Of a stretch of 61,205 nucleotides of DNA, positions 7,090-38,723 are shown one piece after another (the first letter of the stretch is position 1; every line of letters begins with the position of its first letter). Source of the DNA: Deltaproteobacteria bacterium (GTDB lineage Bacteria; Myxococcota_A; UBA796; GCA-2862545); contig REDI01000060.1 of NCBI GenBank assembly GCA_007693595.1, positions 1 to 61,205 on the forward strand, read 5' to 3'. The notes below the pieces were generated by a model. It was not told where the DNA came from, ran no database searches, and saw only the letters and a program-made list of their open reading frames with translations. The position numbers and the translations under genes were made by a program.

Positions 7090-7548
7090 ATGACTAAACG
7101 CCCCCTACTTGGCCTGTGCGTGTTCGGGCTGATCTCCTGTGGTGGTGCCGACTCCATCCTCCCCGAGGGCTGGGAGGACGCGGCCCGCCTCGCGGACTTT
7201 TCGCAGTCGGCCTGTATGGACGACGGAGACTCCGCCTCCGACGAGGAGCCGGTCGAAGTGATCCACGTTCGCGCCCAGCCTGGGGTGGCGATCGTCCACT
7301 GGGCCGACGTCACCTTCCGGTGCGATCAGCCCCTCGAAGCGTATGTACGTCGCGGTCAACGGGTCGACGTCCTCGTCCAACCCATCGACCTGCTCCCCGA
7401 GGGGGCGGCGCGCTGCGACTGTCGCTACGAGCTCGACTTCGCCATCAACATCGACGAGGGCGATCGGAGCTTCGGCTTCTACGTTCGACGCGATGAGCTC
7501 GCAGGGCCGTCGAGCCCCAGCTTGGTGGGGACGGTCACGGTCCCCTGA
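7090..7548 (+). CDS. Small lipoprotein of unknown function
   Basis: 152 residues from ATG 7090, preceded by GGAGG. The signal peptide ends in the lipobox LISC (Cys17), so export and lipidation are predicted. The mature part is acidic, with four further Cys (ACMDD, FRCDQ, CDCRYELDF) and a predicted all-beta fold. The pairs of Cys suggest disulfides in the periplasm. It lies 28 bp after selO on the same strand. Its last 14 bases overlap the 3' end of the convergent TPR gene. No family recognised. Confidence 0.75.
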   Translation: MTKRPLLGLCVFGLISCGGADSILPEGWEDAARLADFSQSACMDDGDSASDEEPVEVIHVRAQPGVAIVHWADVTFRCDQPLEAYVRRGQRVDVLVQPIDLLPEGAARCDCRYELDFAINIDEGDRSFGFYVRRDELAGPSSPSLVGTVTVP

Positions 7549-10405
7549 GCAGGGGGTCGCTCAGGCTTGGGCGCGAGCCGGGGCGGAGCGTGGCGGCGTA
7601 GCTCAGCAGGGCGGTGATACGAAAGGCCTCGGCCGCCGAGAGGGAGCTCTCGGGATCTTGAAGGAGGTTCGTCAGCCCTTCGGAGCGCGCCCGCGCCGCG
7701 AGGGGGGCCGACTTGGAAGAGGTCTTGAGGATCGCACCGACCGAAGCATGCAGATCGCCGGTGAGAAGCAGCGCGCCCCGCTCGGCCTGGATGCGCATCC
7801 GCAGCGCGACTTCGGTGAGACGTTCCCGGCTTATACCCGTTGGATCCGCGGTCCGCTCTTGGCTCAGCCAGCTCACGACGGGCTCCGCCAGCCGGGCAGC
7901 CTTCCCGACGTGACTCCGAGTCGCGAGCACGGCGCGGGTGATCCGCACGAGGCTTCCGACTTTACGGGCTTGATCCAGGCCCGGTAGGAGCGTGAGCAGG
8001 TCGAAGACCACCTCGGCCGCCCCGGCCCACCCGCTCGCCTGCTCGAAGAGACTTCGGCTTGTTCCAAGGAGGCTCTGCTCGAAGCGCAGCACCGGGTGCT
8101 CGCAGCGGAGGTGGAGCAGCTCGGTGGCGACCGCGAAGCGCAGCTCAGCGGGCGAGAGGTGCCGGGAGTGTCCTTGGGTGAGGTGATCGATGCCCAGGAG
8201 CAGAACGGGAGGATGGCAGGGCCAGGCCGACAGGCCCCAGGCCCCCTGGCCTCGAAAGACGAAGCCGATGGGCGGGGCGTCGAGCCCGAGCACCCCAGAG
8301 AGCTGCGCGATGAGCCGGGCCTCCTCGTGGAATCCAGCGCGCTCCAGCCGGTCCAGCCCGCGGCTGAGGGTGATGAAGTCGGGGCCGCTCGGAGTGTCGA
8401 GGCGCTGTCCCAGCGTATCGAACCAGCGCGCGCCGCCGGGATGGAGGGACTCGAGCTGTTCATCGGTGAGCGCATGGGTGGGGGCGAGCGCTTCGCCGTC
8501 TCGCTCGCCGGTGAGCAGGCCGTGAAGGTGGGCCCACCAGCCTCGGGTCGTGCTGGGTACATAGAGATCGGGACAGGTGAGCGCGGCTTCGAAGGCATCG
8601 GGCTCCAGGAAGCTCTGCTCGACCGCTCGGTGCAGGATCGCGAGGGCGCCGTCGGGGTCGCCTCCACGGGCGCGGAGCCTGGCCGCCTCGCGGTAGTGCG
8701 ACCAGAGAGGAAGCGTGGGGTCGCTCAGCCGTCCCGCGAGCAGGTCGCGGGCCAGGGCGATCCGTAGATCGGCCGCCGCGAGAGGCCGCTTGACCGTGGT
8801 CTCGAGCAGCTCCGAGAGTCTCAGCCGGGTCTGCTCGCACCCAGGGTCTTGGGCGACGGCCGCCTCGAGCACCTTGATCGCGGCCGCGTGGCGGCCCAGG
8901 GAGGCGCAGAGCTCGGCGAGGAGGCGCTGGGCCGGGGCGGGTAGGGGCTCCTCGAGCGCGCCTTGGCCTTGGTCTAGGGCGATCGCGCGGCGCCAGGCTG
9001 CGCGGGCCTCTTCGGGCTGGGCCTCGGCGTAGGCCCAGGCCCCCCATCGCCAGCGCAGCGCGGCGGTCTCGTCGAGGGCTGCGGCGTGCGCGAGCGCGAA
9101 CCACGGTGACGCGCCTTCGGCGTGGGCGGCGTCGGCGGTCCGCCTCCAGGCTTCGGCCGCATCCGCGCTACCGGCGGCGGTGGCGAGGACGGCGTGGGCG
9201 AGGTGGCCTCGTTGGGAGGAGGGGGCAGGCCAGAGGACTCGGGCTTCGGGAAAACGCTGGAGGCAGCATAAGGCGCTGGCCCACACTTCGGGCGCGGACC
9301 GGGCGGGGCGGGGCAGGGCCTCGGGGGGGAGAGGCACGGTGGCCAAGGCATCGAGCATGTCGCCGGCGAGCTCCCGCACAGTGCGCCAGGATAGCCCGCG
9401 GAGACTGCGCTCCAGGGGGATGCGCTCGCGCTCCCAGAGGCGTGCGACCGCCGCCGGTTCGAGGTCCGGCTCCTCTTGGAGGGCTCGACAGGCGGCGGCG
9501 GTGGCGAGGACCCCCTGATCGAGGCTCAGGCAGATCTGCGCGAGGTGGGGCCAGCAGTTGGAGGAGACGCCAAGCGCGTGAGCTTGACCCATGAGCTGGA
9601 GCGCTAGCTCGGGCTCCCCCGAGATGATGCGATGTCGGGCGGCGATTGCCCAGCGCTCCGCCGGTGTTGCGCTCGCCGCGAGGGCTTCGGCCAGAGCGAT
9701 CCTTCCTCGACTCCCGCGGGGTTGAAGGGCCCGCCCCTCGACCACGAGGCTCTTGCCTTTCAAGGGGAGCGGCCCTGGAGGTAGCGACAGCACCCAGGGC
9801 GGGGCGCCGTCGGCGGCTCGGCAGCACAAGGCGGTGCGGTGCGTGGAGATCCAAAGCCAGACTTCATGCTCGGCGGGCCCCTCGAAGCCCGGGCTGGTCC
9901 GCTTATGGTCCAGCTCCAGAAGCACGAGCAAGCGCTCGGTAGGGTCGATCTGCGGAACGGGAGGCGACTGGATGGCCAGCTCTACCCCGGGGGCGGCGGT
10001 GGTGGTCGGCTCCGGCAAGGGGCACTCGACGGGCCAGGGGTCGCCGTCGGGTCGCTTGCGCGTGAAGCTCGCCAAGAGGTCTTCGAGCTCTCTTCGACCT
10101 CCTCGCCGGACCGGGACAGTCCACGGGCCGACGTGCAGGGTGTCTCGCTGCCAGCCGGGCTCGATGCGGATCTGCTCGGCCCGACCCACCGCGACGGCCC
10201 AGGTCCTCTCGGTCTCGGGCTCGTGAGCCACCAGCCACCAGCGCCGATGGGTCGCGACCGCCCAGACAGCGGCCGTAACGGGAGGATCGCCAAGCCTCGC
10301 GCCCTCGAAGGTGTGGACGGCCGCCGTGAGCGCGTGGCCGACCAAGCGCTCTTCGGCCCAGCGGTTGAGGTGAGGCAGCAGTGCTGGGGGTGGGAGCGCG
10401 TGCAT
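7535..10405 (-). CDS. Large TPR protein with degenerate M48-peptidase-like C-terminal domain
   Basis: ATG 10405 gives 956 residues; a TTG two codons upstream is an alternative and neither has a strong ribosome site. No signal peptide or membrane helix is evident. Residues ~230-680 are Ala/Leu/Arg-rich helical repeats of TPR type (for example AEAQPEEARAAWRRAIAL and AIKVLEAAVAQDPGCEQ). The C-terminal ~270 residues resemble the M48-like module often fused to TPRs: PPVLLLGIDHL, LSPAELRFAVATELLHLRC, then ERGALLLTGDLHASVGAI. The zinc motif HExxH reads TELLH (residues 761-765; codons at 8111-8125), so the first zinc-binding His is missing and proteolysis is unlikely. It is encoded 36 bp after the OmpA paralog and probably co-transcribed. 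Role unknown; possibly a scaffold. Confidence 0.75.
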   Translation of the reverse strand: MHALPPPALLPHLNRWAEERLVGHALTAAVHTFEGARLGDPPVTAAVWAVATHRRWWLVAHEPETERTWAVAVGRAEQIRIEPGWQRDTLHVGPWTVPVRRGGRRELEDLLASFTRKRPDGDPWPVECPLPEPTTTAAPGVELAIQSPPVPQIDPTERLLVLLELDHKRTSPGFEGPAEHEVWLWISTHRTALCCRAADGAPPWVLSLPPGPLPLKGKSLVVEGRALQPRGSRGRIALAEALAASATPAERWAIAARHRIISGEPELALQLMGQAHALGVSSNCWPHLAQICLSLDQGVLATAAACRALQEEPDLEPAAVARLWERERIPLERSLRGLSWRTVRELAGDMLDALATVPLPPEALPRPARSAPEVWASALCCLQRFPEARVLWPAPSSQRGHLAHAVLATAAGSADAAEAWRRTADAAHAEGASPWFALAHAAALDETAALRWRWGAWAYAEAQPEEARAAWRRAIALDQGQGALEEPLPAPAQRLLAELCASLGRHAAAIKVLEAAVAQDPGCEQTRLRLSELLETTVKRPLAAADLRIALARDLLAGRLSDPTLPLWSHYREAARLRARGGDPDGALAILHRAVEQSFLEPDAFEAALTCPDLYVPSTTRGWWAHLHGLLTGERDGEALAPTHALTDEQLESLHPGGARWFDTLGQRLDTPSGPDFITLSRGLDRLERAGFHEEARLIAQLSGVLGLDAPPIGFVFRGQGAWGLSAWPCHPPVLLLGIDHLTQGHSRHLSPAELRFAVATELLHLRCEHPVLRFEQSLLGTSRSLFEQASGWAGAAEVVFDLLTLLPGLDQARKVGSLVRITRAVLATRSHVGKAARLAEPVVSWLSQERTADPTGISRERLTEVALRMRIQAERGALLLTGDLHASVGAILKTSSKSAPLAARARSEGLTNLLQDPESSLSAAEAFRITALLSYAATLRPGSRPSLSDPLLRGP

Positions 10406-30757: not shown

Positions 30758-31615
30758 TCAGTCGGGGTCCGCTCGTACGCCTCGGGGAAAGTTGAGGGCT
30801 CGACCCTCGCTGGGGATCCCGTCGAAGCCCAATCGGTCGAAGCTGGTCACGCGCCAGTAGAGCTTGTCGAGCCGATAAGGCAGAAAGAGCTGCGTGGGCT
30901 CCCAGCGAAGCCTGCCGACCTCGGTGCGGCGGAGAAGCTTGGTGAACGCAGCGTCTGACGCGATCTCCACGCGGTAGCCCAGGGCGCGCTCGACGGGCGT
31001 CCAGGTGAAGTCTGGGGTGTGAAGCACCCCCTCCGGCTCCGGTGAGACCGGGCTACCGGGAGGGAGCAAGGCGATGGGCTGCCCGGGGCGCTGACCTGTG
31101 GGGGTGCGTACACCTAGCCCGGCTTCGAGGGCGATCTGCGCTCCTGCGCCTCGAACCGAAACGGCCCGGGACACCGCCTCGGATCGCATGGCTGCCTCTT
31201 CGACCGCGACCCGGAAGCCACCCTGCGTTCCGCTGGTCGAGCCCGAGGGGGTGTGGATGGTGAGCTCGGTGCCCAGATCTCGCTCTCGGACCGAGAGCGC
31301 GCCGGTCCGCACGTTGATGACACGTCGAGAGGGGCCGGTCCGGGAGTCCGAGGAGCGCAGGGTCAGGCAGGTGCCTGGTAGCAGGGTCAGGTCGTCCGCT
31401 GGCTCGCACCCGGGCTCCCCGCCCAGGCGGAGCGTGGCGAAGCTGTCCTGGTCGGTGCAGACCTCGGTCCCGTGGGGAAGAAAGAGCTGCTCTTCGAGCC
31501 GGACCGGATCGCCGTCGAGGCGTGCGTATCCAGAGCCGTTGAGGGCGGTGAGCTGCGCGGGGCGCTCGTCGGGGACCTCAGCGAGCGAGAGGGAGGCGAG
31601 GAGCAACCATGGCAT
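30758..31615 (-). CDS. Secreted FecR-domain protein
   Basis: 285 residues; the ATG at 31615 shares one base with the preceding stop (TGATG). A short signal peptide (MPWLLLASLSLAEVP) is followed by a FecR-like domain (~20-165) with GTEVCTDQDSFATLRL, TLLPGTCLTL, VINVRTGALSV and TIHTPSGSTSGTQGGFRVAV. The C-terminal ~90 residues resemble a fibronectin-like beta domain (FTWTPVERALGYRVEI, then KLYWRVTSFD). It lacks the cytoplasmic and membrane parts of classic FecR, so it is probably a periplasmic partner, not a sigma regulator. Last gene of the kinase cassette and tightly coupled to the OmpA-like protein. Confidence 0.85.
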   Translation of the reverse strand: MPWLLLASLSLAEVPDERPAQLTALNGSGYARLDGDPVRLEEQLFLPHGTEVCTDQDSFATLRLGGEPGCEPADDLTLLPGTCLTLRSSDSRTGPSRRVINVRTGALSVRERDLGTELTIHTPSGSTSGTQGGFRVAVEEAAMRSEAVSRAVSVRGAGAQIALEAGLGVRTPTGQRPGQPIALLPPGSPVSPEPEGVLHTPDFTWTPVERALGYRVEIASDAAFTKLLRRTEVGRLRWEPTQLFLPYRLDKLYWRVTSFDRLGFDGIPSEGRALNFPRGVRADPD

Positions 31616-32790
31616 CAGGGCACCTCGGGTAGGACGGGCTGGACGAAGACCGCGCGCTGCTGCGCCGCGGACTGGGAGGGATCCGGCGGTCTGGGTGGCA
31701 CGAGGTCGTAGTCCGACTCACGAAGGCCCGCGGTACGCAGGAGCTCTGCGATCGCCTCGGCCCGCTCCGCCGCGAGTTGGAGGTTGAGCTCCATTCCACC
31801 ATCGGGCGAGTAGGAGCCGGCGATACGGAGGCGATAGCTGCCGCGGTTGCGGGCGAGCTCCTGAACCAGGATCCGATCCTCTGGACGGACTTGGGACGAG
31901 CCGCCTTCAAAGAGCACACGAACCTCGGGCGGCGGGGAGGCACGGAGCCAGAGGGCGTAGCCATCCATGATCTGCACCTCGAAGCGCTGGCGCTGCCCAC
32001 CACCCTTCACCTCGACCACCAAAGGGCCCTCGGCGGCCCTGAGTCGAGCGACCCCGTCCTCACCGATGTCGTGGACTTGCTCCCCCACGACCACGCGGTG
32101 CGCGGGGCTCCCCGCCACGATCACCCAGCCCTGCCCTCGGCGCGAAGACGAGGGGACGCCCTGATGGACCGCGCGGGGGGCGCTGCCCCCGGGCAGGCTG
32201 ATGCCTTGCTCGGGATGCCAGCCCTCCTTGGGTGCTTCGTCGGTCCAGGTGCAGGTCTCGGGATCCCACCAAGGTTTCCCGGAGGTGGCGGTCGGGGACG
32301 GAGGGGGCTCGGTGGATGGCGGGACCATCGGCTCGTGCCGGCTCCGCCCCGGTCGTCCCACAAGGCCGACCCGCAGCCCGATCGTCCAGCCGCCGGTCAG
32401 ATCGGTCCATGTCGCGGCGCCGAAGCGCATGTGGTGTGGCCATCCCGTCGGCGCGTCGACGTCGACGCCGAAGAGGACGACCGGGTTCAGCTCCTCGCCG
32501 AGGGACCCGCCTCCGCCCACCATGAGAGAGGGGCGCCAGGCCTCACGCCGGGTCTCGGGGTCGAGGAGGTGCAGGCGCAGCGCGGGCATGGCCTGGAGGT
32601 GTCCGCCGCCGCCCGAGATCAGCTTGGCATCGATCCTCCCCTCGAGGCCGAGGTGGGTCCAGGCACGCACCCCGAGTCCCGCGCTCATCAGAGGCCCACT
32701 CCCTAAATCCTGCGCGACGGTGACAGAGCGGCCCACCATGACATCGACGGTGGGGTCCGCCCAGGCGGTGAGGGCGAGCCAGAGGATCAT
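31615..32790 (-). CDS. OmpA-like envelope protein with degenerate peptidoglycan-binding site
   Basis: 391 residues; ATG 32790 overlaps the kinase stop by 4 bp. A short signal sequence (MILWLALTAWA) leads to a barrel-like region to ~135 (for example GGWTIGLRVGLVG), a Pro/Ser linker, a PEGA-like beta segment (~205-275) and a C-terminal OmpA fold (~285-385: VRVLFEGGSSQVRPEDR, AAERAEAIAELLRTAGL, QQRAVFV). The usual GHTD is GSYS and the NRRV motif is changed, so binding to diaminopimelate may be lost or altered. Coupled on both sides in the kinase cassette, it could be the envelope sensor that reports to the kinases; that is inference. Confidence 0.82.
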   Translation of the reverse strand: MILWLALTAWADPTVDVMVGRSVTVAQDLGSGPLMSAGLGVRAWTHLGLEGRIDAKLISGGGGHLQAMPALRLHLLDPETRREAWRPSLMVGGGGSLGEELNPVVLFGVDVDAPTGWPHHMRFGAATWTDLTGGWTIGLRVGLVGRPGRSRHEPMVPPSTEPPPSPTATSGKPWWDPETCTWTDEAPKEGWHPEQGISLPGGSAPRAVHQGVPSSSRRGQGWVIVAGSPAHRVVVGEQVHDIGEDGVARLRAAEGPLVVEVKGGGQRQRFEVQIMDGYALWLRASPPPEVRVLFEGGSSQVRPEDRILVQELARNRGSYRLRIAGSYSPDGGMELNLQLAAERAEAIAELLRTAGLRESDYDLVPPRPPDPSQSAAQQRAVFVQPVLPEVP

Positions 32791-34229
32791 GGTGCGCTTG
32801 GCTCCAGCTTCAGAGGAATGGGTGTGTCCCGGTGGGACGGGGTGAAGGTGCCGTGCAGGTCTCCGCCTCGCCATCGTAGTCGATAGCTCCCGGCATCGGG
32901 AGCTTGGACCGTATCCACGAGGTGAAGCTCGCCGTTCGCAGGGCTCCAAGATCCACGTATAGGCGTGTCTATTCGGTTGCCATCGAAGTCCACGGCCATG
33001 GTCCCTCGTACCTGGTCGCCCTGGGTCTGCAGCGTCATCGTGCAGGAGCGCCCGCCGAAGTCTCCACGCCAAAGGGGCGTGAGCTCTCGGGGTGGGGGCA
33101 TCGGAGCGGGCCGGCCGGGTCGCACGATCGGGGCGAGCAGTCCGGGGTCCTCGCGGTCGAACGACTCGTCCTCGTCCGGGGGAGCTTCTGCTGAGATCCT
33201 TGTGAGGATCTCCGGCTCGAGAGGGGCCCGCCGCGTGCTCCAGCGCCAGACGAAGGGCGAGAGGCTGATCGAGAGGACGACTGCGACCAAGAGGAGCCGT
33301 CCGGCTCGGCGGTTGGTGGGGAAGGAAGAGGGGGGAGGGGGCTCTGGTGTGAGCGCCAGCGTCTCGTAGGGGCTCTCGGGGCCAAGGAAGTTGGCGGGGT
33401 CCAGCTCGGGTCGGCTCGCCCATGCGGAGGGTAGGTGGGGGTGGAGCAGCGCGGCCACCGCGTCTGCACGCTGGGGGCGCTCTTCGGGCTTGGCCTTCGT
33501 CGCCCAGCGAATCGCGCGGACCAGGTCCGGCTGGAGGCCGTCGAACCGATCGGACGTCGCGTCCGTGGCGAAGAGATCGACTGGGTTCTTCGCCGTCAAC
33601 ATCCAGTAGAGGCTCGCTCCCACCGCGTAGAGATCTGCGGGTGGGCCCACCGATCGTGCGTCTAGCCGTTGCTCGGGCGGCATGAAGGCGAAGGAGCCCA
33701 TCGACACGCCCTCGCGCGTGCGACGATCACCCTCGGTCACGAGCGCGATCCCGAAGTCGGCGAGGACGGTGCGGTCGTCTGCGGCGATGAGGAGGTTCTG
33801 TGGCTTGATGTCACGATGGATGATCCCTCTGGCGTGCACGGCCGACAGGCCTGCGAGCACCTCGAGGATCCGACGAACCGCCTCATCGGGAGGGAGTGGC
33901 CCCTTCTGGGTGATGCGGTCGGCGACGCTCCCCGCCTCCAGGAGCTCCGTCACGAGATAGGTTCGCTCCTCGCAGGTCCCGAAGTCGAGGACCCTGAGCA
34001 CCGAGGGGTGGTCTATGCTCGCCATGGCCCGTGCCTCGGCGAGCAGACGCCGACGGTAGGTGGGGCTCGACGCGGTACGATCCCCCAGCACCTTGAGCGC
34101 GCGATCGACCCCGAGCCGCGTGTCGGTGACGCGCCAGACCTCGGCGGCCCCTCCAGCGCCCAAGGGGAGGACGATCCGGTAGCGTCCGGCGACGGTCTGC
34201 CCGACCCTCACGGCACGGCGTCCATCCAT
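32787..34229 (-). CDS. Transmembrane Ser/Thr protein kinase (kinase 1)
   Basis: ATG 34229 is chosen (480 residues); the in-frame extension upstream is unlikely coding, and GTG 34211 is an alternative. All kinase motifs are intact: GAGGAAEV (24-31), Lys46, Glu65, HRDIKPQN (138-145), DFG (158-160), and PPE (184-186). A helix at ~311-329 crosses the membrane. The periplasmic C-terminal domain (~385-480) is a small beta fold beginning W-x-G and containing GSWSPANGELHL, SYRLRWRGGDLHGTF and IPLKL, similar in plan to that of the other kinase. Such Hanks-type kinases phosphorylate Ser/Thr of cytoplasmic partners; the FHA regulator encoded just upstream is a likely target. Confidence 0.92.
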   Translation of the reverse strand: MDGRRAVRVGQTVAGRYRIVLPLGAGGAAEVWRVTDTRLGVDRALKVLGDRTASSPTYRRRLLAEARAMASIDHPSVLRVLDFGTCEERTYLVTELLEAGSVADRITQKGPLPPDEAVRRILEVLAGLSAVHARGIIHRDIKPQNLLIAADDRTVLADFGIALVTEGDRRTREGVSMGSFAFMPPEQRLDARSVGPPADLYAVGASLYWMLTAKNPVDLFATDATSDRFDGLQPDLVRAIRWATKAKPEERPQRADAVAALLHPHLPSAWASRPELDPANFLGPESPYETLALTPEPPPPSSFPTNRRAGRLLLVAVVLSISLSPFVWRWSTRRAPLEPEILTRISAEAPPDEDESFDREDPGLLAPIVRPGRPAPMPPPRELTPLWRGDFGGRSCTMTLQTQGDQVRGTMAVDFDGNRIDTPIRGSWSPANGELHLVDTVQAPDAGSYRLRWRGGDLHGTFTPSHRDTPIPLKLEPSAP

Positions 34230-34321
34230 GAGCCGACGTGGCCTCTCGGGCCTGACGTGCGCACGGGCGATGGCAGGTTCATGGGCATCGGTGCGCAGTA
34301 TACGCCGATGCCCTGAGACGG

Positions 34322-35281
34322 CTAGGCCACCTCGACGGACTTGACGCGGACGCGCAGGGCTCTGCGGCGCTTCTCGATGAACCACGGGTCGAACCCGGCC
34401 TTCTTAAGCTCCCGGCGCAGGCGGTGGGTCAAGACGTGCAGGGCGTTGGCGTCGGCTGTGCCGCGCTTTCCCCAGATCCCGACCGAGACGTCTGCGTCGG
34501 AGCACCACCCGCGCTCGGGCCGCGGCAGACCCGTGTCGCGGTCCTCGAGCCACTGCTTGCCGAGGACGTAGAGCAGAATGGCCCGGTTCTCGGCGTCGAC
34601 CCGGTGGGCGATGTCGCGGGTGTCGTCGTATATCATGGCCTCGGGGCCCGCGACTCCGTCGAGGGTGACCTTGAGGGTGTAGGGGTAACGCGCCGGCTCG
34701 GCCTCGATGGTGGCGGTATAGGTCGGGGCGAGGGCGAGGAGCTTGAGCACCCGACCGGCGACGGTAAAGGTCTGTCCAGGCTGAATAGGCCGCTCCTCAC
34801 CGTCTTCGTCGCCGATGTAGACCTCGCCGTCGGCGAAGGCGAGCAAGGTCGCCGCCTGCACCGGCGCGTGGGGGATGCGCAGGCTGTCGTGCTCGCCACC
34901 CCCGATCGTGAAGCGGTCGGACCGGAGCGGAAAGCGGACCCCAGAGGACGTGTCTTCGACGAGGAGGCCGAGAGGGGGCCCCGCGGAGGCGCCGTCACCG
35001 TGGACGCGGAGCTCCATGTCGGGGCCGAGACGGATGCTGTCGCCGTAGTTGATCGGAGTGGGGTTTTGGATCCGAACATCGTTGACGAAGGTGCCGTTTC
35101 GGCTTCCGAGGTCCTTAATCCAGGCCTGTCCCCCCTCGACCCAAGCTGAGGCGTGGTTCGAAGAGACGGTCTGTTCGGTAATGACGACGTCGTTCTCGGG
35201 GCCGCGACCGAGGTAAAGCGGCTGCTCCGATAGGGGTATTGCGTGAAGAATCACGCCGTCTCTGACCACTTGCAGGTCCAT
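34322..35281 (-). CDS. FHA-domain protein with winged-helix-like C-terminus
   Basis: ATG 35281 with AAGGGAGAG upstream gives 319 residues. The first FHA (~20-95) has all phosphothreonine-binding marks: LGRGPENDVVI, SSNHAS and DLGSRNGTFVN. A second, degenerate FHA-like domain follows (~108-190; FTIGGGEHDSLRI, LAFADGEVYIGDEDG) without the Ser-x-x-His/Asn set. The last ~90 residues (AILLYVLGKQW, VGIWGKRG, ALHVLTHRLRRELKKAGFDPWFIEKRRR) match the plan of an OmpR-type winged helix, suggesting DNA binding. No signal peptide. A cytoplasmic regulator turned on or off by kinase phosphorylation is the simplest reading. Confidence 0.88.
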   Translation of the reverse strand: MDLQVVRDGVILHAIPLSEQPLYLGRGPENDVVITEQTVSSNHASAWVEGGQAWIKDLGSRNGTFVNDVRIQNPTPINYGDSIRLGPDMELRVHGDGASAGPPLGLLVEDTSSGVRFPLRSDRFTIGGGEHDSLRIPHAPVQAATLLAFADGEVYIGDEDGEERPIQPGQTFTVAGRVLKLLALAPTYTATIEAEPARYPYTLKVTLDGVAGPEAMIYDDTRDIAHRVDAENRAILLYVLGKQWLEDRDTGLPRPERGWCSDADVSVGIWGKRGTADANALHVLTHRLRRELKKAGFDPWFIEKRRRALRVRVKSVEVA

Positions 35282-35307
35282 CACTCTCCCTTCTGGGGCA
35301 GCGTATC

Positions 35308-36801
35308 TTAGTGCGGTTCGGTGTGGTTGTCGGGTAAAGAGGGTCGCAAGGCTACGGGGACCACCTCGGCTCCCTGCGCTCGGCTCACCGTGCCGTCGAG
35401 ACGGTCTTCGGTGAGCGTGAGCCGCCAAGTCTCGGGTCGCCCCTTCGATGCCGTGGTGTTGAAAGTAATGAGATTGGGTTGAGAAAGGGCGCCAGTTAGC
35501 CGAGTCGGCCGCTCTCTGTTGGCATGCTCCACGGTCCCTCCTAGCACTGAGAGCGTGCCATTGAAGGTTACCATGACAGGAGATCCGTCGCATGAACCAT
35601 GCCAGGTCGTAGGAAATGGCAATACTCCTGACAGGTCCTCAGCCTCGCTGGCAGGGGGTGGCGATGGACTGTCTTGTGTCTTACGTCGCTCTGTCGTGAC
35701 GGGATCGGATGGGACAGACGATGGCGTGGAGGTCGGAGATCCGGGCTCCGTGGACCTCTCGATCTTAGGTTCGGATATGATCTTGGTGGGGGACGATGGG
35801 ACTTGGTGAGGAGGAGCGGTCCCCTCTTGGCTCCGCCCCAGCGACCAACCTGCGAAGCCCAGGCACAAGAGCAGGAGGATCGAGGCTCCGAGAAGGTAGA
35901 CGAACCCGCGAAGGCGAACGGCGCCCTGCGGGGCGGCGGTGGGCTCTCGAAGCGTGGACTCAGGAGCGAGAGCCTGGGGGCTCAGGCTCGGGATGTCCGC
36001 TGAGAGTGCGGAAACCACCTGGGACAGACGGTCCTCGAGCTCGGCGGCGGTCGAGGGCCGGAGGGTAGGGTCTTGCTGGCAGGCGTCGCGGAGGATCTCT
36101 CGCAGCGGCGCAGGCACGGGCTCCCAGCGATGGGATTCGGGTCCACAGAGGAAGAGGTCGACGGGTGAGCTGCCCGTGACCGCCCAATACAGGGTGGCGG
36201 CGGCGGCGTAGACGTCGGCGGCGGGGGTCACGGCGTGGGCGTCGAGCCGTTGCTCAGGTGCCATCGTAGCCCACGAGCCGAGCGCGACTCCCGTCAGCGT
36301 GAGCTGCTTGGTCCGGTCGGCGAGCCAGGCCACCCCGAAATCGGTCAGCAGAGGGCGCCCGGCCTCATCCAGCAAGATGTTCGCAGGTTTGAGATCGCGA
36401 TGGATGATGCCGTGGTCGTGCGCGCACTGGAGGCCCCTGAGGATCTGGATCATGGTCTGCGTGGCGGCACGGGGGCTCAAGGGACCCTGTTGGGTCAAGC
36501 GCTCAGCGAGGCTCTCGCTGAGCAGTGGCATGACGACGTAGTGAAGACCACGTTCCTCACCAACATCCAGGACCGGCACCAAGGCCGGGTGACGCAGCGA
36601 GGCCATCACCCGTGCCTCATCTCGAAAGCGCTGGACGGAGTTTGCGTCTCGGTCAGCGATCCGCGCGATCTTGATCGCTCGGTCCGCCTCGAGCACGTGA
36701 TCCCGGCATCGGTAGACGACCGCCATCCCACCGGCACCCAGGGGCTCGAACACGTCATATCGGCCATCAGCGAAGCGGTAGAGTGGGTCGCGCTTGGTCA
36801 A
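35308..36801 (-). CDS. Transmembrane Ser/Thr protein kinase (kinase 2)
   Basis: 497 residues from ATG 36801. Motifs: LGAGGMAVVY (21-30), Lys44, HRDLKPAN (134-141), DFG (154-156), APE (181-183); the kinase domain ends near 265. A helix spans ~300-320 (VYLLGASILLLLCLGFAGWS). A Ser/Pro/Thr linker follows, then a beta-rich domain (~395-490) with TTWHGSCDGSPVMVTF, RLTGALSQPNLITF, TWRLTLTEDRLDGTV and VVPVAL, similar in layout to that of kinase 1. It is the first gene of the cassette, divergent from the DUF481 gene, with 26 bp before the FHA regulator. Expected to be active. Confidence 0.92.
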   Translation of the reverse strand: MTKRDPLYRFADGRYDVFEPLGAGGMAVVYRCRDHVLEADRAIKIARIADRDANSVQRFRDEARVMASLRHPALVPVLDVGEERGLHYVVMPLLSESLAERLTQQGPLSPRAATQTMIQILRGLQCAHDHGIIHRDLKPANILLDEAGRPLLTDFGVAWLADRTKQLTLTGVALGSWATMAPEQRLDAHAVTPAADVYAAAATLYWAVTGSSPVDLFLCGPESHRWEPVPAPLREILRDACQQDPTLRPSTAAELEDRLSQVVSALSADIPSLSPQALAPESTLREPTAAPQGAVRLRGFVYLLGASILLLLCLGFAGWSLGRSQEGTAPPHQVPSSPTKIISEPKIERSTEPGSPTSTPSSVPSDPVTTERRKTQDSPSPPPASEAEDLSGVLPFPTTWHGSCDGSPVMVTFNGTLSVLGGTVEHANRERPTRLTGALSQPNLITFNTTASKGRPETWRLTLTEDRLDGTVSRAQGAEVVPVALRPSLPDNHTEPH

Positions 36802-36951
36802 GTTGGACTTTTCTCAGAGTGGGGCTAGAGGCGGATGCGCTGGGCGAGATCTCAGAGGGCGAAGTCCCCGTCATTGTAGCTGCCCAACGGTCGATACGCC
36901 TTTGTTGTGAAGCGTTCCTTATGTGGTGAGCGCCCGCCATGGAGAGTTCCG

Positions 36952-37749
36952 ATGTTGATTTTGTTGATTACGCTCCTGGGTCACGCCAAGAGCCCAGGAC
37001 TGCAGACCACCGTCAAAGATGCGGAAGAAGTCGAGAAGCCCAAGAGCGAGCTCGCGGCGGAGTTCGGCGGCGCCCTCGCGGCGGGCAACTCGGCGGCCTA
37101 CAGTCTGAACGCGGGGTTCAACGGCGCCCACCGCTGGAAACAGAACCGGCTTACGGCCTCGTTCTCGGGCCTCTTCGGCCAATCGGTCGTCGATGGCGAC
37201 GGCGATGGCATCCTCTCTCCCGAAGACCGGGCGCGGGGCTACATCACCAATCAGCAGCAGCTCTTTGGTGTCGCGCGCTACGATCGGTTCTTTGGAAAAA
37301 AGAACAGCCTCTACGCGCTGTCGGCGATCCTCGTCGATCCCTTCGCGGGGTTCACGTCTCGTACCCAGCAGCAGATCGGCTACTCGCGCAAGTTCGTCGC
37401 CGAAGAGAGCACCTCGGTCGTCGGGGAAGTCGGGTTCGACTGGGCGCAAGAGTACTACGTGCCGGGGGTCGATCCCCGCTATCAAGACATCTTCGCCCTT
37501 CGCTTCATGGTAGGGGTCGAGCACACCTTCAATGAACAGGTCAAGCTCATCTCCGGCCTCGAGGCTTACCCCAACGTCATCGATATCGGGCAGGTGCGCG
37601 TGATCAACACCACCTCCCTCGCGGCGAAGCTTACAGACAAGATCGGCTTCAAGACTGCTTATAACCTTCGATTCGACAATGATCCCGTCCCCGGCTTTCG
37701 TCGGGCGGACCACGCGCTCACCGCCAGCCTCGTCGTGACCTTCCTCTAG
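36952..37749 (+). CDS. DUF481 family outer-membrane protein (YdiY-like)
   Basis: 265 residues from ATG 36952, with GGAGAG upstream. The signal part is MLILLITLLGHA. The rest has the DUF481 pattern: KSELAAEFGGALAAGNSAAYSLNAG, RLTASFSGLFGQSV, QQLFGVARYDRFFGKKNSLYA, then barrel strands to a terminal Phe-Leu. An Asp-rich loop (DGDGDGILSPED, ~82-93) looks calcium-binding. The family includes E. coli YdiY, called salt-induced; its function is not settled. It is separated from the divergent kinase gene by 150 bp and followed by a GC hairpin. Confidence 0.85.
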   Translation: MLILLITLLGHAKSPGLQTTVKDAEEVEKPKSELAAEFGGALAAGNSAAYSLNAGFNGAHRWKQNRLTASFSGLFGQSVVDGDGDGILSPEDRARGYITNQQQLFGVARYDRFFGKKNSLYALSAILVDPFAGFTSRTQQQIGYSRKFVAEESTSVVGEVGFDWAQEYYVPGVDPRYQDIFALRFMVGVEHTFNEQVKLISGLEAYPNVIDIGQVRVINTTSLAAKLTDKIGFKTAYNLRFDNDPVPGFRRADHALTASLVVTFL

Positions 37750-37889: not shown

Positions 37890-38723
37890 ATGGATACCGA
37901 AGAACTGACCAAATATGCCGATGAGGCCGTAAAGATCGGCATGGAGACTGGCTCGAGCATGATCTGGAGCATCCTCGCGGGTGGTGCCATCTGCGTCGTC
38001 GGCTGGATGGTGTCCAAGTGGATCGCCAAGCTCGTCGTCGCCTCGACGGAGCGTGCCAAGCTCGATCTCGCGCTGGGCCGGTTCTTGTCTCAGATCGCGC
38101 GCTACGCCGTGCTGGTTGGTACGGGCGTGTCCGCCCTAGCGACCATGGGCTTCGAGGTCACGACCTTCGTGGCGGTGCTCGGTGCCGCGGGTTTCGCGGT
38201 CGGCCTGGCGCTGCAGGGCACCCTCGGGCACTTCGCGAGTGGGGTCATGATCCTCATCTTTCGGCCCATTGGGCTCGGCGACTTTGTCGTCGCTGGGGGG
38301 TCCACCGGCACGGTTAAAGAGATCGGGCTCTTCCAGACCGTGCTGCTGAGCCCCGACAATCAGACCATCTTTGTCCCAAACGGGAGCGTCACGGGTGGCA
38401 CGATCATCAACTTCACCCGCCAAGGCACCCGCCGCGCCGAGATCGACGTGGGCGTCGCGTATGGCGCCGATCTCAAAGAGGTAGAACAAGCATGCCTTCA
38501 GGCGATCGAGGGTGTCCAAGAGATCCTCCCCGAGCCCCCTCCGGCCTTCGCCTTCGTCGAGATGGCCGACAGCAGCTTGAACTTCAAGCTGCGCGCCTGG
38601 TGCAACGCGCCCGACTATCTGCTCGTCATGCACAAGATGCGCAGCGCGGTCTACGATGAGCTCAACGCGCGCCACATCGAGATCCCCTTCCCGCAGGTCG
38701 TGGTCCACAAGGCCGAAGACTGA
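37890..38723 (+). CDS. mscS: MscS-family mechanosensitive channel
   Basis: 277 residues, close to E. coli MscS (286). Three membrane segments: ~25-46 (WSILAGGAICVVGWMVSKWI), ~68-90 and the pore helix ~93-125, which reads VLGAAGFAVGLALQGTLGHFASGVMILIFRPIGLGDFV, the classic Ala/Gly-packed TM3 with a Gln and a beta-domain entry (short quote: GLALQGTLGHFASG). The cytoplasmic beta domain holds VFVPNGSVTGGTIINFT-type residues, and an alpha/beta end follows. It opens under membrane tension to release osmolytes. It starts a + strand run of six genes. Confidence 0.95.
   Translation: MDTEELTKYADEAVKIGMETGSSMIWSILAGGAICVVGWMVSKWIAKLVVASTERAKLDLALGRFLSQIARYAVLVGTGVSALATMGFEVTTFVAVLGAAGFAVGLALQGTLGHFASGVMILIFRPIGLGDFVVAGGSTGTVKEIGLFQTVLLSPDNQTIFVPNGSVTGGTIINFTRQGTRRAEIDVGVAYGADLKEVEQACLQAIEGVQEILPEPPPAFAFVEMADSSLNFKLRAWCNAPDYLLVMHKMRSAVYDELNARHIEIPFPQVVVHKAED

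Follow-up and report, generated by a model that had tools for sequence, protein, structure and literature searches.

A putative trans-envelope phospho-signalling operon with a barrel-bearing Ser/Thr kinase and an FHA–winged-helix regulator in an uncultured relative of the myxobacteria

Myxobacteria-like genomes encode dozens of Ser/Thr kinases, but what such a kinase senses and what it controls is known in few cases. Can one of them be placed in a path that runs from the outer envelope to DNA? The question is raised by five adjacent genes in an uncultured bacterium related to the myxobacteria (Deltaproteobacteria bacterium, assembly GCA_007693595.1), whose 4.9-Mb draft genome contains 76 Pkinase matches. 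The window analyzed here is the first 61 kb (61,205 nucleotides) of contig C32 of that genome. Its cassette encodes two transmembrane Ser/Thr kinases (K1, 35308-36801, and K2, 32787-34229), an FHA-domain regulator, an OmpA-like protein and a FecR-like protein. By analogy with known systems, the cassette is probably a trans-envelope phospho-signalling operon, in which OmpA and FecR would act on the K2 ectodomain, the FHA domain would dock on the kinase and a winged helix would change transcription. The analysis is computational and covers which genes are present, how their domains fold, how far the unit is conserved and how it is linked to DUF481 and MscS genes.

All five open reading frames lie on the minus strand, and a codon-usage gene caller chose identical frames, which confirms the genes proposed in an earlier reading of the sequence (the original prediction). 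K1 is separated from the FHA gene by 26 nucleotides, and the FHA gene from K2 by 92. The start/stop overlaps that had been noted were measured at 4 nucleotides (K2/OmpA) and 1 nucleotide (OmpA/FecR).

The regulator, a kinase, OmpA and FecR occur together within ~8 kb in 16 loci (the window, L069, L070, L072, L073, L075, L079, L080, L082, L086, L101, L103, L104, L116, L122, and L153). With L067, whose contig ends ahead of FecR, these loci span 12 genera and families f1 to f6, all six that were sampled in the order. Tight overlaps between the kinase, OmpA and FecR genes recur in relatives from several families; gene order is variable, with the FHA gene first, divergent or last, and the kinases of L080 and L082 give only a weak barrel match. 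Among the order members of the phylum-wide sample, the regulator is present in 19 of 19 genomes with a FecR-family gene and in 14 of 30 without one (Fisher p 8e-5, without correction for descent). Synteny of all five families was the check originally proposed; linkage is conserved for four genes (16 loci, 12 genera, six families) and not for K1, which recurs at this place solely in G001, the second genome of the genus. The conserved unit therefore consists of four genes. Beyond the regulator, genus g11 has a different kinase and L079 a kinase-receiver fusion (7390-9744), in which Pfam recognizes a Ser/Thr kinase and two receiver domains; the g11 kinase beside the regulator at L072 (6934-9327) clusters with it. 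MopE-repeat proteins (cluster c4) lie near the regulator in 11 loci but represent an abundant family grouped by its repeats and were rejected as partners.

The regulator can be aligned across nearly its whole length with 55 relatives. Pfam FHA matches it with an E value of 3e-18 to 5e-18 and is found in all 55 relatives, in which Arg26, Ser40, His43, Asn62 and Gly63 of the domain are invariant. The AlphaFold2 (AF2) model (predicted local distance difference test [pLDDT], 90) places an FHA sandwich at residues 1 to 95 and a second sandwich at 105 to 184, followed by strands, helices at 231 to 249, 262 to 270 and 278 to 294, and a C-terminal hairpin. The FHA fold resembles those of EmbR (2ff4; Z, 16.7), FhaA (3oun; Z, 16.9) and GarA (Z, 16 to 17), and the model and alignment indicate that the second sandwich lacks the phospho-binding residues. 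Trans_reg_C matches the window protein at 0.001, under the curated cut-off, and 43 of the 55 family members (best, 3.3e-8), while a profile of the C terminus (A6) picks up the SaeR DNA-binding domain (E, 2e-4). The most conserved stretch is the predicted recognition helix and wing, NxLxVLVHRLRxEL...FDPWFIEKRR. A VIA-align search with the whole regulator is dominated by FHA chains and is uninformative on the winged helix either way. Sequence matches and model together confirm the predicted OmpR/PhoB-type winged helix at the C terminus. This feature, whose absence would have counted against the original prediction, is thus present by Trans_reg_C, AF2 topology and SaeR similarity, and the proposed architecture of FHA, degenerate FHA and winged helix is supported. 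A second, distant FHA–winged-helix gene occurs elsewhere in the host genome (L211, G000:C44, 4614-10177), immediately upstream of a very long kinase gene, and this pairing suggests a wider family of kinases paired with FHA–winged-helix proteins.

Both kinases have strong Pkinase matches (3e-39 for K1, about 4e-37 to 5e-37 for K2) and retain the catalytic Lys, HRDxKxxN, DFG and [A/P]PE, the sequence motifs of Hanks-type Ser/Thr kinases. Each has one strong hydrophobic segment C-terminal to the kinase domain, so that two transmembrane kinases with intact catalytic motifs, as originally described, are indeed found. In 22 related kinases, neither the catalytic residues nor Thr169 of the activation loop varies. 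The K2 ectodomain is modeled by AF2 with high confidence (pLDDT, 95.8) as an eight-stranded up-and-down beta barrel. VIA-align relates this barrel to avidins, Cap15, GID4 and a quinohemoprotein amine dehydrogenase domain (Z, 11 to 14), but the best Foldseek E value is only 1.4e-3; a calycin-like fold is therefore likely for the model, as a fold-level likeness assigned to no single family. In the host genome, the barrel (profile A5) is confined to K1 and K2. Of 30 strong barrel matches, 29 adjoin the regulator or FecR, a count that is partly circular because such loci supplied the sequences for the profile, so the count within the host genome is the fairer evidence. A recent origin of K1 by duplication of K2 is unsupported, as K1 falls in a separate clade with its G001 counterpart in a poorly resolved tree. 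Many PADLOC kinase models, including those of PD-T4-6 anti-phage kinases, match through the kinase domain; the remaining cassette proteins match no PADLOC model.

The OmpA-like secreted protein also bears out its original description as OmpA-like. The Pfam OmpA match is under the cut-off for the window protein (4.9e-5) and is found in 11 of 11 relatives (best, 2e-8), and the family profile (A3) matches Pal (1.5e-10) and YfiB (7.5e-9), with the Pal/YfiB-like domain at the C-terminal end. In the domain alignment the Arg of LxxxRA is conserved, and Ser occupies the usual Asp position, in GSYSPDG. The description of the last gene as a secreted FecR-domain protein was right in part. It belongs to a FecR-like family (conserved at 32 to 46% among relatives), but the window protein is shortened and is not matched by Pfam FecR (PF04773), which reaches 5 of 14 order relatives (best, 3e-4) and, at 5.5e-18, a distant relative at L163 found with the same family profile. 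Most order relatives carry a LysM-like stretch behind the signal peptide (Pfam LysM in 4 of 9 tested, 9.8e-7 to 0.03). Searches of solved structures with the FecR family profile returned chance-level matches alone. A secreted protein of ~285 residues without a Pfam match, probably a beta barrel, is encoded at L160 (8764-9651), and similar genes are found at L075, L080, L082, L103, L116 and L157 to L159; in many relatives such a gene lies 3' of FecR, yet it is absent there in the window.

Outside the order, less similar OmpA-FecR pairs are found upstream of a CHASE2 cyclase (L162, L168, and L171) or, at L163, of a CHASE2 histidine kinase. The pair looks like an interchangeable envelope sensor, and its position upstream of these enzymes in distant relatives fits a sensor role. 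A pair is also present at L169, and FecR is clearly typed in some of these five loci. It is conceivable, although we would lean against it, that a pair of OmpA and LysM-FecR has been plugged, according to lineage, into a CHASE2 cyclase, a CHASE2 histidine kinase or a barrel Ser/Thr kinase with an FHA–winged-helix regulator, the last forming a Gram-negative outer-envelope-to-DNA pathway that runs wholly on phosphothreonine and controls DUF481/MscS envelope genes.

Candidate targets of the regulator are the DUF481 and MscS genes, which start divergently from the cassette and may form an operon of their own. Four genomes from three genera (the window, L075, L100, and L103) have DUF481 at most two genes from the regulator, and MscS adjoins or is near it in the window, L075 and L084; one or both adjoin the regulator in four genera. 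Genomes of the order carry roughly a single DUF481 copy each, yet the gene is close to the regulator in 4 of ~55 loci, against ~0.05 expected by chance.

We infer all molecular contacts by analogy with PknH-EmbR and YfiBNR, and likewise the signal, the targets and the direction in which control runs. An OmpA-like protein anchored at the outer membrane or peptidoglycan would, together with the periplasmic FecR-type protein, signal the condition of the wall or outer membrane, and both would act on the periplasmic barrel of K2, altering its autophosphorylation. The regulator, through its FHA domain, would dock on a phosphothreonine of K2, most simply the invariant Thr169, and might then be phosphorylated or freed from self-inhibition. 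The OmpR-type winged helix would in turn alter how envelope genes are transcribed; the neighboring DUF481-MscS pair and the operon itself are plausible examples. Within the genus, K1 may provide an accessory second input.

Several observations weigh against this mechanism. The regulator is apart from OmpA-FecR in several genomes (at contig ends in some of them), and not every regulator gene has a kinase next to it. The window FecR-like protein is without the N-terminal LysM-like stretch, and wall binding by the OmpA-like protein is uncertain because its domain has lost the Asp at what we take to be the usual diaminopimelate-binding position. The DUF481-MscS pair lies away from the regulator in 8 of 20 other genomes looked at, so that their linkage could be inherited gene order. 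No common DNA motif stood out upstream of the regulator, FecR and DUF481 operons, where top words and dyads were barely commoner than in shuffles. The lack of a shared motif would suit a phospho-switch that is not mainly transcriptional, with the FHA domain tethering the protein to the kinase, the winged helix-turn-helix (wHTH) serving dimerization or protein contacts, and OmpA and FecR being co-expressed structural envelope proteins. Enzymes and secretion systems are frequent targets of FHA proteins, and the second FHA-like sandwich likewise suggests protein-protein contacts. Such a switch is nevertheless quite improbable, given that conservation of the regulator peaks in the recognition helix and wing, which match an OmpR-type DNA-binding domain.

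Alternatively, two modules may merely be neighbors, one a pathway of kinase and FHA-wHTH protein and the other an OmpA-FecR pair for cell-wall anchoring, their adjacency being neutral or a matter of co-regulation. OmpA-FecR does have quite different partners elsewhere in the phylum, and in nine cases, some at contig ends, a barrel kinase and regulator have no OmpA-FecR nearby. However, stop/start overlaps join the K2-type kinase, OmpA and FecR in several families, a membrane signalling enzyme (CHASE2 cyclase or kinase) follows OmpA-FecR in distant relatives too, and FecR in the order is found only alongside the regulator; separate modules thus seem unlikely, though not negligibly so. A lineage-specific assembly of chance neighbors with no joint function would account for the recurrence of K1 solely in the other genome of its genus and for the loss of LysM from the window FecR. 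It is highly improbable, since the frames are open, the catalytic and phospho-binding residues are intact and, in particular, four genes are conserved over six families, which strongly disfavors it. Taken as a trans-envelope phospho-signalling operon, the cassette brings together a kinase whose outer domain is a predicted sensor barrel, possible partners in the envelope, a DNA-binding reader encoded alongside and genes that it may control, and the whole path is testable together. Coordinates of all features are collected in the table; no RNA families or tRNAs were found when looked for in the window.

Table. Predicted features of the cassette and its divergent neighbors (positions in the window)
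Feature	Position	Strand	Basis
FHA / FHA-like / winged-helix regulator, 319 aa	34322..35281	-	ATG at 35281; Pfam FHA, Trans_reg_C; AF2
Canonical FHA domain	34997..35281	-	Invariant residues in 55 relatives; fold matches to EmbR, FhaA
Second FHA-like beta sandwich, phosphothreonine-binding residues absent	34730..34969	-	AF2 secondary structure, alignment
Predicted OmpR/PhoB-type winged helix	34328..34681	-	AF2; profile match to SaeR DNA-binding domain
K2 transmembrane Ser/Thr kinase, 480 aa, conserved unit	32787..34229	-	Pkinase; neighbors in other families
K2 ectodomain, modeled eight-stranded up-and-down barrel, calycin/avidin-like	32799..33074	-	AF2, VIA-align
K2 single transmembrane segment, residues 309-327	33249..33305	-	Hydropathy
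OmpA-like secreted protein, 391 aa; start lies within K2 stop	31615..32790	-	Pfam, profile A3
OmpA C-terminal peptidoglycan-binding-type domain	31714..31914	-	Pfam PF00691 4.9e-5
FecR-like secreted protein, 285 aa, without LysM-like stretch of relatives	30758..31615	-	Family conservation
K1 second transmembrane Ser/Thr kinase, TTG start, genus-level addition	35308..36801	-	Pkinase; same place in G001
K1 ectodomain, divergent relative of K2 barrel	35338..35631	-	Profile A5 1.7e-20
Divergent DUF481 outer-membrane protein gene, candidate target	36907..37749	+	Pfam DUF481 3.4e-33; true start may be 36952
MscS-type mechanosensitive channel gene, candidate target	37890..38723	+	Pfam MS_channel_2nd 1.1e-15

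The combination was originally said to correspond to no described system, and we likewise found no published description of it in the open-access literature. Its elements are already known separately: signalling from a kinase to an FHA regulator (EmbR), an N-terminal FHA domain on a transcription factor (EspM), and relays across outer membrane, periplasm and inner membrane (YfiBNR). In Mycobacterium tuberculosis, the transmembrane Ser/Thr kinase PknH has a domain outside the cytoplasm, and EmbR combines FHA and OmpR-type DNA-binding domains in a regulator that reads phosphothreonine (PMC4601284). The cassette shares with this pair a kinase with an outer domain and an FHA/OmpR-type regulator, and the FHA folds are alike. 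An EmbR-like mode of action would entail docking of the FHA domain on the phosphorylated kinase and stronger DNA binding upon phosphorylation. The domain order in EmbR is DNA-binding domain, BTAD and FHA, whereas here it is FHA, FHA-like and wHTH; with this reversed order and no BTAD match, the regulator falls outside the EmbR/SARP family. The description of PknH-EmbR has no counterpart of the outer-membrane OmpA-FecR part. Closer in domain order is EspM, a mycobacterial regulator of ESX-1 with an N-terminal FHA domain and a C-terminal DNA-binding half (PMC7002343). The regulator matches the EspM family of NCBIfam weakly, through the FHA domain (4e-4), with the C-terminal half unmatched, and the part of PMC7002343 consulted describes no cognate kinase or envelope sensor genes.

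On the envelope side, the FecR-type domain is shared at family level with FecR/FecI/FecA surface signalling. Unlike FecR of that system, the cassette protein is secreted and has no transmembrane anti-sigma region, and Pfam annotation of the window's genes on either side of the cassette shows no sigma factor or TonB receptor. YfiB-YfiR-YfiN of Pseudomonas aeruginosa consists of an OmpA/Pal-like outer-membrane sensor, a periplasmic partner and an inner-membrane enzyme (PMC4655355), and the cassette resembles it in its outer-membrane sensor layout and in the YfiB match of its OmpA profile. In YfiBNR the periplasmic partner is YfiR and the output is cyclic di-GMP, made by the diguanylate cyclase YfiN, whereas the partners in the cassette are the FecR-like protein and a Ser/Thr kinase, with a transcription factor as the predicted output. 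In the OmpA-FecR-CHASE2 clusters of the same phylum, a membrane signalling enzyme is encoded after a related gene pair, but their OmpA proteins are larger and their output is a nucleotide cyclase or a histidine kinase. These contexts suggest that one envelope-sensor pair has been rewired to cyclic-nucleotide, two-component and phosphothreonine outputs.

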